DNA of 34,554 nucleotides, taken from NCBI GenBank assembly GCA_013372975.1, contig JABXIS010000052.1:1-34554 (forward strand). Reading direction: 5' to 3'. The notes under the pieces were generated by a model that was not told the origin of the DNA, made no database searches, and saw nothing but the letters and a program-made list of their open reading frames with translations. The stretch's first letter is position 1. Each line of letters opens with the position of its first letter. Position numbers and translations under genes: made by a program. Shown piece after piece: positions 584-24,950 of the stretch. Source of the stretch: Alphaproteobacteria bacterium. GTDB lineage: Bacteria; Pseudomonadota; Alphaproteobacteria; Sphingomonadales; Kordiimonadaceae.

Positions 584-628
584 CTAATGTCAGCGATAAC
601 CTACAGCAAATATATAAGGGAGGATGAA

Positions 629-21276: not shown

Positions 21277-21714
21277 CTAGTTGGCGCCAAGCATCGCTGT
21301 TAGTTTGGCCTCGGTTACCATCTCGCCACCTACGAAAGCTTGTGCATCAAATTTCCAAACGGCGCCGCCGCCACGGGTTTTGGTCACCTTCATTTCAAGC
21401 ACATCGCCGGGGCCTACAGGCTTCCGGAACTTCGCGCCATCGATCCCCATGAAATAGACGACCTTGCCTTTGGCATCATCACCTAAGAAATCGATTGCCA
21501 GTGCGCCAGCCGTTTGTGCCATTGCTTCCAGGATCAGAACGCCCGGCATCACCGGCTTCTGGGGAAAATGCCCCGGAAAAAATGGTTCATTCATTGTGAC
21601 ACATTTGATACCAGTGGCGCTTTCGCCCGGCACAACATCCACAACCTTGTCCACCAGCAGGAACGGATACCGGTGAGGTATCAGTTCCATAATTTTTTGG
21701 ATATCAAATTCCAT
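21277..21714 (-). CDS. fabZ: 3-hydroxyacyl-ACP dehydratase FabZ
   Basis: Dehydrates beta-hydroxyacyl-ACP in fatty acid elongation. The 145-residue hot-dog fold protein begins [20 protein letters not shown] and carries the catalytic His49 in [16 protein letters not shown] and Glu63 in [30 protein letters not shown] matches the family. It is the last gene of the minus-strand unit, 15 nt after ompH and directly before a strong terminator. In most Gram-negative bacteria lpxD precedes and lpxA follows fabZ; both are missing here. Confidence 0.97.
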
Positions 21715-21729
21715 GACAGCCGCCTTCTA

Positions 21730-22320
21730 TTATTGGTTGCCGCCTTCGGCAGGCGCGTCAGCAGCCGGTGCAGCCTGAGGCATATTGATTGTCACGTTAG
21801 GCAGCTCAGCGTCCAGACGTTCAATAAACTCAGTGGTTACATCAATACCTGCAGCAGAGCCAAGAACCAGACGCTTCAGCATGATTACCTGAGCTTTCCG
21901 GTCGGCCAAAAGCGTACGGATTACAGGTTGGCGCGCGCGTTCCACTTGTACCATTGCTTCCTGACGAAGTTTGTCGAAAGTATATTCAAGTTGGCTCAGC
22001 GCCTGCTGTGCTTGAACATACTGAGACTCCAGCTTCCTCTTTTCTTCTTCGTATTTATCGTTGCCGATAATAGCTTTACGCTTTTCCAGGTCAGCAAGCT
22101 GTTGCTCAACGACACCGCCACGCGTAATGAACTGCCGTAGCTGAAGAATATTCTGGCGCAACTCGGCAGTTTGGAGATTGAAGTCCTTATAGGCAGCAGC
22201 TTCACGCTCAATACGTTCATCGTCTACTGTCAGAATTTGAGCATTCGCCATTGCGGCAAACCCAAGTACAGCGGCCAGTCCCACGGCCGCCATCTTTGCT
22301 GATTTAAACATCTTACCCAT
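21730..22320 (-). CDS. OmpH/Skp-family periplasmic chaperone
   Basis: Skp-type chaperones hold unfolded outer-membrane proteins in the periplasm and pass them to the BAM complex. The 196-residue protein has a signal peptide (KMAAVGLAAVLGFAAMANA, cleaved before QILTVDDERI), a long coiled-coil body (TAELRQNILQLRQFI, LADLEKRKAI, YEEEKRKLESQYVQAQQAL), and a Pro/Ala-rich tail. The ATG at 22320 has an AGGGA site 8 nt upstream. An ATG seven codons upstream (22341) has no ribosome site and almost touches the bamA stop. It lies 23 nt after bamA and 15 nt before fabZ. Confidence 0.9.
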   Translation of the reverse strand: MGKMFKSAKMAAVGLAAVLGFAAMANAQILTVDDERIEREAAAYKDFNLQTAELRQNILQLRQFITRGGVVEQQLADLEKRKAIIGNDKYEEEKRKLESQYVQAQQALSQLEYTFDKLRQEAMVQVERARQPVIRTLLADRKAQVIMLKRLVLGSAAGIDVTTEFIERLDAELPNVTINMPQAAPAADAPAEGGNQ

Positions 22321-22343
22321 TGTTAGTTTCCCTATTGTCATTC

Positions 22344-24950
22344 TTAGAAGGTGGTACCCACGTTGAATTGCAACGTTTGTGTACGGTCACCCAGTTGTTT
22401 CTTGAGTGTTTTTGCAAGGTCAATTCGGAACGGACCGAATGGCGACTGCCAAGAGAAGCCGATACCCACAGATATCCTTGGTGCAGCGCTATCACCCGCA
22501 ATACAGTTCAATGTAAGGTCGCTTGTTGTTCCGTCTTCGACAGCCAGATCATAGTCAGCTTGTGTGAAAGCACATTTCGGCAGTGAATCCTCCTGCCCCC
22601 GGAAAAGCGAGCCAACGTCAATGAATGCAGAAGCATTGATGCCCGATTCCAGTGCCGCATCGCCAAGTGGGAAGAAGAGTTCGCCTCGCCCGATATAGAA
22701 TGCGGTACCACCGATTGAAGAACGGCTATTGGATGTGCTGCCAGCAAACTGGCGTGGACCAATACCACCTGTATCGAAGCCGCGAATACGCGGGCCACCG
22801 ATGAAGAAGCGATCTGAAAGACGAATATCCTGGCCGAGGCCATGAATGATGCCTGCCTCACCGCCTACGCGGAAAGTCCAGCCCTGCCATGGTGTCCAAT
22901 AGTTATCAAAGTTAACCGAAGACCGCAGATACTTCACATCGCCGCCTAGACCGGCAAAGTCCTGACTGAAATAGAAGCTGTGCCCGCGTGTAGGTCGGAT
23001 GACGCTATTTCTTGTATCAAAACCAATGGTATAACCAAGGATCGACTGGAAGCGCTTGCCATCGGCCTCCTGATACGACTGAGGCAACGTTGCGAGCAAT
23101 TCGTCTCTATCCAAGTCGGAGATCGAGGCGGAACCACTACCATCCAGATCATAATCTGCCAGATCAACTGCGCCGTCGCCATTGCGATCATATGCTGCAA
23201 CACGGGCATCAATTTCCGCATCGGTAAGAGGCGTAGGATCACTGCCATCAAAATTATTCAACCGCAGATCTTCTACTGTGGTTTGAATATCCAGTGTGGA
23301 ACGGAAGAAGGAATCAAGTGCACTGTCTACGATTGTCACATCGTCCTGACGAAGCGTATACCGCGTCGACAGCGTCCAATATTCGCTAATGGCCATACCA
23401 GCACGCAGAGAGAAACCAAGAGATTTGGTTTCAAATCCAGATCCTGTAAGGCCGGATTCAACATTGCGCGCGAAGATGTCAAAGCCTGCAGCAACACGAC
23501 GTCCCATAAAGTATGGCTCCGTGAAGCCAAAATCGATTTCCTGGCGGTTGCCTGAAAGGCGAAGTCCCAAACGGAGGTCTTGCGCCTTACCTCGGAAGTT
23601 CCGCTGGCGGATGGAGAAATCGAAAATAAAGTTCTCCAGGCTAGAGAAACCAGCACCCAAGTTAAGTTCACCGGTAGCCTGCTCTTCTACAGCGACGTCC
23701 AGCACCATACGATCTGGCTCTGAACCCTGCAGCTGTTCAACAGTCACTTCGCGGAAGAAATCAAGGCGCTTCAGCCGGTTTTCGGAACGTGTAACCAACG
23801 CCGAGTTGAATGCATCGCCTTCCTGAAGGCGGAATTCACGCCGTATAACGCGGTCCAAAGTAACGACATTACCTGTTACATTGATGCGTTCCACATAAAC
23901 CCGTGGGGCATCCAATACCCGAAAAGTGATGTTGATCTTGCGGTTTTCCCTATCGCGGTTAATTTGTGGACGGACGTCCACAAAAGCATAACCGAGCAAA
24001 CCGGCAGCATTTGAAAGAGATTCGATCGTTTTTTCGATTGCTTCAGCATTGTAAGTCATGCCCTCGCGCATCAATAGGAACGCTCGGAACAAACTCGCAT
24101 TTACGTCCCTGATCTCACTTTCAACGTCGATGGTACCAAACTCGTAAATTTCACCCTCTTCAATCGCGAAAGTGATGAAGAAGTCTTCCCGATCAGGCGT
24201 CAGCTCGGATACGGCAGAAACCGTACGGAAGTCTGCGTAACCTTCATTGAGATAGTGTTGGCGAAGAACCTGCTGATCGTATGCAAGGCGGTTGGGGTCA
24301 AAGGTATCGTTAGACGAAAAGATTTTCCACCAACGCGATTCCTTGGTCGCAAGTACGTCCCGCAGGTCACCATCACTGAAACTCTCGTTACCAATGAAGT
24401 TGATGCGGCTAACCTTGGTTTTCGGCCCTTCCTGGATTTCATAAACCACATCAACGCGGTTTTGCTCCAGCTGAACAACTTTTGGTTCGATGATGGCCGC
24501 AAACCGACCGGAACTACGATATTGTTCCATCATGCGCTGCACGTCAGAGCGTACTTTCGCACGGGTAAAGACCTGGCGGGGGCGCAAACGGGCCTCTTCC
24601 AAGAGATCTTCCCGGTCCAGCTTCTTGTTTCCTTCAAAGATAATTCGGTTGATTATCGGGTTCTCGACCACCCTAACAACCAAGGCCCCTTGGCTTTCCG
24701 AAAGCTCTACGTCAGAAAACAGTCCTGTCGCAAAAAGGTTTTTAAGGCTGATGTCCAGCTTGGCTGGGTCAAAGGGTTCGCCAGGACGCACCGCCAGATA
24801 GGAGGCAATCGTTTCTGGTTCAACCCTCTCGTTACCGACCACACTAATCTGCCGGATAATAGGAATCTGTTGAGCAGCCTGCTCTTGTGCCGAAACTGGC
24901 ACCGAAACAGACATTCCCCCGATCATCAGCGCTGCAATGAAGCGCGACAT
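22344..24950 (-). CDS. bamA: Outer-membrane protein assembly factor BamA, with an EF-hand-like barrel insertion
   Basis: Central subunit of the BAM complex, which inserts beta-barrel proteins into the outer membrane. About 868 residues: signal peptide (MSRFIAALMIGGMSVSVPVS), five POTRA domains (to about residue 420), and a C-terminal Omp85 barrel ending in aromatic QFNVGTTF. The lid-loop motif is present in GGPRIRGFDTGGIGPRQ. Two loops are unusual: residues about 588-612 hold back-to-back DRNGDGAVDLAD and DLDGSGSASISD, which resemble calcium-binding EF-hand/dockerin loops, and a later loop has two cysteines (KCAFTQADYD ... LTLNC) that may pair. A TTG at 24974 with AGGA upstream is an alternative start; the ATG at 24950 gives the cleaner signal peptide. 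Confidence 0.95.
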   Translation of the reverse strand: MSRFIAALMIGGMSVSVPVSAQEQAAQQIPIIRQISVVGNERVEPETIASYLAVRPGEPFDPAKLDISLKNLFATGLFSDVELSESQGALVVRVVENPIINRIIFEGNKKLDREDLLEEARLRPRQVFTRAKVRSDVQRMMEQYRSSGRFAAIIEPKVVQLEQNRVDVVYEIQEGPKTKVSRINFIGNESFSDGDLRDVLATKESRWWKIFSSNDTFDPNRLAYDQQVLRQHYLNEGYADFRTVSAVSELTPDREDFFITFAIEEGEIYEFGTIDVESEIRDVNASLFRAFLLMREGMTYNAEAIEKTIESLSNAAGLLGYAFVDVRPQINRDRENRKINITFRVLDAPRVYVERINVTGNVVTLDRVIRREFRLQEGDAFNSALVTRSENRLKRLDFFREVTVEQLQGSEPDRMVLDVAVEEQATGELNLGAGFSSLENFIFDFSIRQRNFRGKAQDLRLGLRLSGNRQEIDFGFTEPYFMGRRVAAGFDIFARNVESGLTGSGFETKSLGFSLRAGMAISEYWTLSTRYTLRQDDVTIVDSALDSFFRSTLDIQTTVEDLRLNNFDGSDPTPLTDAEIDARVAAYDRNGDGAVDLADYDLDGSGSASISDLDRDELLATLPQSYQEADGKRFQSILGYTIGFDTRNSVIRPTRGHSFYFSQDFAGLGGDVKYLRSSVNFDNYWTPWQGWTFRVGGEAGIIHGLGQDIRLSDRFFIGGPRIRGFDTGGIGPRQFAGSTSNSRSSIGGTAFYIGRGELFFPLGDAALESGINASAFIDVGSLFRGQEDSLPKCAFTQADYDLAVEDGTTSDLTLNCIAGDSAAPRISVGIGFSWQSPFGPFRIDLAKTLKKQLGDRTQTLQFNVGTTF

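Follow-up and report, generated by a model that had tools for sequence, protein, structure and literature searches.

Genomic context of bamA

The DNA analyzed here is a stretch of 34,554 nucleotides (hereafter the window), which covers positions 1 to 34,554 of contig JABXIS010000052.1 in assembly GCA_013372975.1 from a member of Kordiimonadaceae. On the minus strand, the gene order pyrH-frr-uppS-cdsA-dxr-rseP-bamA-(skp-like)-fabZ was identified, with gltA on the plus strand (Table 1). The genes lpxD, lpxA, and lpxB, which usually follow fabZ in an operon of this type, were not adjacent to fabZ at this locus.

The bamA product contained five POTRA stretches (PF07244) and matched the Omp85 domain over its full length (PF01103, 236 bits), the domain combination that defines BamA. 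In addition, it matched the BamA family TIGR03303 with 722 bits (cut-off, 297). Named records with 64–80% identity included Kordiimonas, Pseudokordiimonas, Eilatimonas, and Kordiimonadaceae MAGs. BamA is an essential protein that is exposed at the cell surface and serves as a drug target; to our knowledge, its mode of action in LPS-free membranes is little understood.

In two genomes of the order outside Kordiimonadaceae, EF-type loops were observed in a frame beside bamA: DTDNNGQLSQAE in L143 (2484–3281, plus strand), where the frame showed 43.9 bits to OmpH (PF03938), and DTNGDGQLDQTE in L144. A similar EF-type motif was found in none of the genes downstream of bamA at the named loci (0/78).

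Table 1. Features of the window discussed in the text.
Feature	Residues	Position	Strand	Basis or remark
fabZ		21277..21714	minus	next gene is gltA (plus strand)
skp-like gene		21730..22341	minus	PF03938, 17.5 bits, below the cut-off of 32.4
bamA, five POTRA stretches and Omp85 barrel domain	876 aa	22344..24974	minus	ORF from TTG start; Pfam and TIGR03303 matches
EL4 insertion	546–640	23055..23339	minus	sequence alignment; break against 9cmw
Segment EIDARVAAY before loop 1, resembling EF-hand helix E	587–595	23190..23216	minus	residue pattern only
Calcium-type loop 1, DRNGDGAVDLAD, canonical	596–607	23154..23189	minus	sequence motif
Calcium-type loop 2, DLDGSGSASISD, non-canonical in the window	609–620	23115..23150	minus	sequence motif
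Alternative position-12 ligand of loop 2 (five-residue insertion assumed)	E625	23100..23102	minus	second lowest nonsynonymous change among 79 EL4 columns

Two consecutive calcium-type loops in EL4

The alignment of the window BamA with the best-matching solved BamA (9cmw) was interrupted by an insertion (query residues 535 to 642, chain residues 528 to 566), bounded by ...YTLRQDD and QSILGYTIGFDTRNS. We take this insertion to be extracellular loop 4 (EL4) of BamA. Measured from YT.R.D to QS, EL4 comprised 80–104 residues in 27 BamA of the family, the window having the longest, whereas 9cmw has 37 residues between the aligned segments. The GC content of the insertion (0.505) was equal to that of the bamA gene (0.507).

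As a preliminary description of this DNA had reported, two consecutive calcium-type loops were present in the insertion (23115–23189, minus strand), lying between barrel strands and at the surface position it had proposed. The location it gave was right, and its residue numbers were 8 lower than ours, presumably counted from Met9. The two loops had been described as patterned alike, which was true of loop 1 and partly of loop 2. Loop 1 was a canonical EF-hand loop, with ligands at positions 1, 3, 5, and 12, glycine at position 6, and a hydrophobic residue at position 8. Loop 2 had serine at position 5 and failed PS00018 (used here in what we take to be the PROSITE form of the EF-hand pattern) owing to alanine at position 8. 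Its position-12 ligand was ambiguous, being D620 when read without gaps or E625 if a five-residue insertion is assumed, as in the MAFFT alignment.

The loops were separated by a single residue, Y608, which gives a spacing of 13 residues. Paired EF-hands lie about 36 residues apart, so that the two loops do not form a standard EF-hand pair, in agreement with the preliminary description. Such a contiguous double calcium-type loop is an unusual arrangement.

The tandem in EL4 is not a chance occurrence. Loop 1 was the sole PS00018 match in 21,369 amino acids translated from open stretches in all six frames (minimum length, 100 residues), many of which do not represent genes. When the window EL4 was shuffled 100,000 times, the single pattern arose 454 times and the 13-spaced tandem 0 times. 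Across 29 Kordiimonadaceae genomes, matches covering both loops were, among the matches listed, found only in BamA (20 genomes), and the best single-loop match outside BamA had an E-value of 8.2e-4. An origin of the insertion as a copy from another protein was rejected, as no further tandem was present among the matches listed for these genomes. No plasmid match was found for one 38-residue segment of the insertion. The idea that calcium loops are general to the outer-membrane proteins of this cell was likewise rejected: no calcium loop was present in the proteins compared, namely LptD (L188) from the same genome as the window and three Omp85 proteins (L112–L114, presumably TamA) from relatives.

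Comparison with EF-hand, dockerin, and other profiles

Profiles of known calcium-binding families were compared with 19 EL4 members. Pfam EF-hand_6 matched 18 of them at E ≤1 and the best EF-hand E-value was 1.7e-7, although an acidic loop can score partly by composition. The window EL4 itself scored under every listed cut-off of the Pfam EF-hand families (best, 16.7 against 25.4 bits). Dockerin (PF00404) matched 9 of the 19 at E ≤1 (best, 2.8e-5), the window not being included. The thrombospondin type 3 repeat, considered as a further candidate, was absent from the nine Pfam families matched by these members at E ≤1. Among NCBIfam profiles, the calcium-binding family XopAW matched eight members (best, 9.5e-5), deiodinase_rel five, and BamM one; none of these three matched the window EL4. 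The single BamM match was weak (E 0.013) and probably reflects motif likeness only.

Against the PDB, the EL4 profile retrieved 537 sequences at E ≤1, the best 60 of which were calmodulins (some of them chimeras) and centrin/caltractin. In the five PDB alignments printed, no second calcium loop stood opposite loop 2. A profile of the loops alone retrieved 407 sequences at E ≤0.1, and in the best 60 of the 407 no best stretch extended over both loops.

Loop 1 shares with EF-hands (PF00036, PF13405) the ligand pattern, Gly6, the hydrophobic residue at position 8, and an aromatic residue at position 13. In contrast to EF-hands, loop 2 of EL4 begins one residue after loop 1, leaving no space for a full helix. 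In 25 rows anchored on the loop 1 pattern, position −4 before loop 1 was L, V, F, or I in 25/25, and position −1 was F or Y in 22/25. Because the residues preceding loop 1 are spaced as in the entering helix of an EF-hand, the EL4 unit may be described as a helix-loop-loop-helix, EF-hand-like with a doubled loop, in which the helices and the fold are predicted from the residue pattern.

Conservation and selection in Kordiimonadaceae

BamA was obtained from 27 of the 29 Kordiimonadaceae genomes (all but G022 and G024). The preliminary description had suggested checking the acidic positions in relatives, and this comparison supported it: by eye and by pattern, at least one loop was present in 26 of the 27 BamA and both in 20. 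Five had loop 1 only (L009, L018, L019, L024, L026), one had loop 2 only (L027), and one had neither (L028). By pattern alone, a PS00018 loop was present in 24 of the 27 EL4, the strict 13-spaced tandem in 18, and a looser tandem in 20. At loop 2, just L013 and L022 of 28 EL4 passed PS00018, and most kept the ligand letters. Since loop 2 was lost or degraded in 6/27 and loop 1 in 2/27 (L028 being in both counts), the pair is not essential.

A tree was built with EL4 left out from 34 rows, comprising 28 family rows (including L044, outside the 27) and 6 outgroups. The state with both loops was found on most deep family branches, with three changes in this state, four in loop 2 states, and one in loop 1 states, on a tree made by a quick method with SH-aLRT only and with 11 of 31 inner branches open. 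L027 and L028 formed long branches of unsure placement. From these state changes, the pair was probably ancestral in Kordiimonadaceae, with later losses.

Sequence conservation was markedly uneven. When the sequences were aligned without anchoring on a motif, mean pairwise identity was 0.323 in EL4, against 0.784 in POTRA, 0.705 in the barrel before EL4, and 0.682 in the barrel after it. Within the loops, it was 0.751 for the loop 1 ligand columns and 0.556 for those of loop 2, compared with 0.212 for the other loop columns. D596 and D607 were each aspartate in 25/27 rows, and the aspartate codons were mixed (GAT/GAC in the 25 anchored rows: 12/13 at D596 and 11/14 at D607).

The EL4 columns with residues in 24 or more of the 27 rows (79 columns) were ranked by nonsynonymous change with all 27 rows included, and seven ligand columns took ranks 3, 4, 6, 7, 9, 11, and 25, the last being ligand 613, which is moderately conserved. 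The D620 column, where the aligner opens a five-column gap, is unreliable and was left out of this ranking. Only 2 of 200,000 random column sets were as good, by a statistic that ignores shared ancestry.

Further, pN/pS was 0.056 for the loop 1 ligands, 0.216 for the loop 2 ligands, and 0.857 for the other loop codons, in 25 of the 27 rows (without L027 and L028) whose anchoring by the loop 1 pattern favors loop 1. The corresponding values were 0.165 for POTRA, 0.275 for the barrel after EL4, and 0.70 for the EL4 stretch before the loops (identity, 0.24), so that the loop 1 ligand codons were tighter than POTRA; all are uncorrected proportions, with pS above 1 for two-fold codons. Such constancy of the ligand columns is what selection on metal ligands looks like in an alignment. 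The tandem calcium-type loops in EL4 of BamA are real and conserved, and their ligand positions are under purifying selection.

As EL4 diverged more than any other region in the comparison and several members had degenerate loops, EL4 might be an acidic, fast-changing decoy under phage or predator pressure, with motifs that no longer bind metal or never did. In a decoy, however, constancy of the metal-ligand positions alone, with synonymous codons mixed, would be unexpected, and we consider this explanation improbable.

Distribution beyond the family

In samples of 385 class and 398 phylum genomes, the EL4 profile with its flanking strands matched 4 and 8 genomes, respectively, at E ≤1e-5, all of them in this order. 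Within the order, 148 of 296 genomes matched at E ≤0.001, including 27 family members at E 1.4e-8 or better; with these flanks the profile could miss calcium loops in other parts of BamA. The weak matches belonged mostly to one family (f5, taken as Sphingomonadaceae), and some lay outside BamA.

Forty BamA regions of the order were fetched, of which 32 were readable. Sixteen of these represented six further families of the order, and none of the 16 had a calcium motif in EL4, which was excised whole by script in 13 and read by eye in L157, L145, and L173. EL4 in these families was mostly about 26–34 residues long, and that of L146 (f3), at about 62 residues, had an acidic stretch without the motif.

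The Sphingomonadaceae-type EL4 is the same loop of the same protein. Of 53 such sequences, 28 carried the motif D.[DN].[DNS]G, 17 of them among the 37 named loci and 11 among the 16 fetched regions; for distinct EL4, the count was 24 of 47. The 16 fetched regions had been chosen partly as profile matches and by their cysteine motif, a selection that does not affect the 37 named loci. The Sphingomonadaceae-type EL4 differs from the Kordiimonadaceae EL4 in having one short loop with two cysteines and no tandem. In a profile comparison, this loop was aligned with loop 2 at a probability of 90.6, with ten rows chosen for the motif and a tail that is common to many BamA. At least two cysteines were observed in all 53 sequences (e.g., L142, L174, L176), including all 37 named loci, which suggests a surface disulfide in Sphingomonadaceae-type BamA.

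Lipid A and sphingolipid genes

LpxC was not found over the cut-off in any of the 29 Kordiimonadaceae genomes, one of which (G010) gave a partial match below it. In the order, 0 of 296 genomes had LpxC over the cut-off, against 117 of 142 class genomes. Serine palmitoyltransferase (NF047599) was over the cut-off in 29/29 family genomes, against 2/14 control genomes. Because of these counts, the outer membrane of Kordiimonadaceae is likely to lack lipid A and to contain sphingolipid, and the LPS-poor surface proposed in the preliminary description is probable. LptD was kept in 25 of the 29 family genomes, the four misses being genomes of 76–93% completeness; in these LpxC-less bacteria it may carry another glycolipid. 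Kordiimonas in combination with calcium, LPS/sphingolipid, or lipid A yielded nothing relevant among the titles and abstract openings listed from the open-access literature.

The order set used for LpxC, 276 genomes of which are not itemized, agreed in size and in number of genera with that used for the EL4 profile, the list of which includes other families. Judged from these gene searches, other families of the order very probably share the absence of LpxC but not the loops. Loss of LPS was therefore rejected as a sufficient cause of the loops and would be a permissive background at most, so that the link between LPS and the loops in the preliminary description holds only in this weaker form.

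Calcium-bound EL4 might also be a docking platform, which would hold a surface protein or bridge anionic sphingolipid headgroups in an LPS-like role. The lipid gene counts are compatible with the second of these roles. For the first, the BAM complex of Flavobacterium johnsoniae offers a parallel, as BamM is bound there on a 76-residue extension of BamA L5 and carries, in its C-terminal domain, seven ions that were assigned as calcium, according to the sections of PMC12611786 used here; the BamM match noted above points the same way. On the other hand, this match was weak and limited to 1 of 19 members, the stretch before the loops evolves almost freely, which makes a conserved protein partner less likely, and BamA of other families in the LpxC-less order lacks the loops. 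Docking is accordingly an unlikely function.

The two systems are alike in having a lineage-specific extracellular elaboration of BamA in which calcium is, or in EL4 would be, involved. They differ in that L5 of F. johnsoniae, as described in the same sections (PMC12611786), is a beta-sheet platform with calcium in the separate subunit BamM, whereas EL4 of Kordiimonadaceae carries the loops itself. Besides this Bacteroidota paper, no report of calcium in BamA was found among the titles and abstract openings listed from the open-access literature, and the word "calcium" occurs 0 times in a Chem Rev 2026 review of BAM.

A putative calcium-stabilized cap

On the residue patterns and their conservation, the EL4 loops probably bind Ca2+, and if they do, the role of the ion is likely structural. 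We propose that EL4 is probably a calcium-stabilized cap domain rather than a sensor. The extracellular mini-domain would begin and end with a helix, with loops 1 and 2 between them joined by a single aromatic residue. Every intact loop would take one Ca2+ from the cell exterior, and EL4 would be folded into the cap by two ions, or by a single ion in members with a degenerate loop 2, perhaps including the window. By rigidifying a long, acidic, and fast-evolving loop, Ca2+ would place the cap over the barrel mouth, and the essential BamA would be kept ordered on a lipid-A-free surface.

There are precedents for such a role. Calcium-binding Dx[DN]xDG loops occur in many different folds, with structural or regulatory roles, an example being an irregular insertion in a subtilisin that is stabilized by four Ca2+ (sections of PMC3123361 used here). 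The outer-membrane barrel BtuB has an extracellular loop that is restrained and ordered by calcium, as would be the case in EL4. BtuB is, however, a different protein, with two sites in a five-aspartate cage and no tandem DxDxDG loops described in the sections of PMC7360065 used here.

The preliminary description had also raised calcium sensing, for which we found no evidence. As a switch, calcium binding would move EL4 and tune or gate the folding activity of BamA, and the contiguity of the loops could give cooperativity. Sea-water Ca2+ is nearly constant, leaving little to sense. The antibody MAB1, an inhibitor of BamA in an E. coli strain with truncated LPS, binds to EL4, and its binding is disrupted by H555Y in this loop, according to the sections of PMC6287456 used here; BamA is therefore inhibitable via EL4, and EL4 can influence BamA function. 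Against a switch in Kordiimonadaceae, the loop 2 states require four changes on the tree, probably reflecting repeated loss, and no regulatory evidence was found. We regard a switch as very improbable. The steady marine Ca2+, the losses of loop 2, and the fast-evolving surroundings of the loops favor stability, as in the proposed cap, over sensing or conserved docking.

A broader and rather doubtful reading is that Kordiimonadaceae replaced the cation-bridged LPS around BamA with a doubled-loop EF-hand, which would use sea-water Ca2+ as a structural cofactor and tie BamA to a sphingolipid outer leaflet. If the proposed cap exists, a conserved metal-binding domain would lie on the outer face of BamA in a probably lipid-A-free, sphingolipid lineage. 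Such a domain would make it possible to test cleanly whether BAM function is shaped by extracellular loops and divalent cations.
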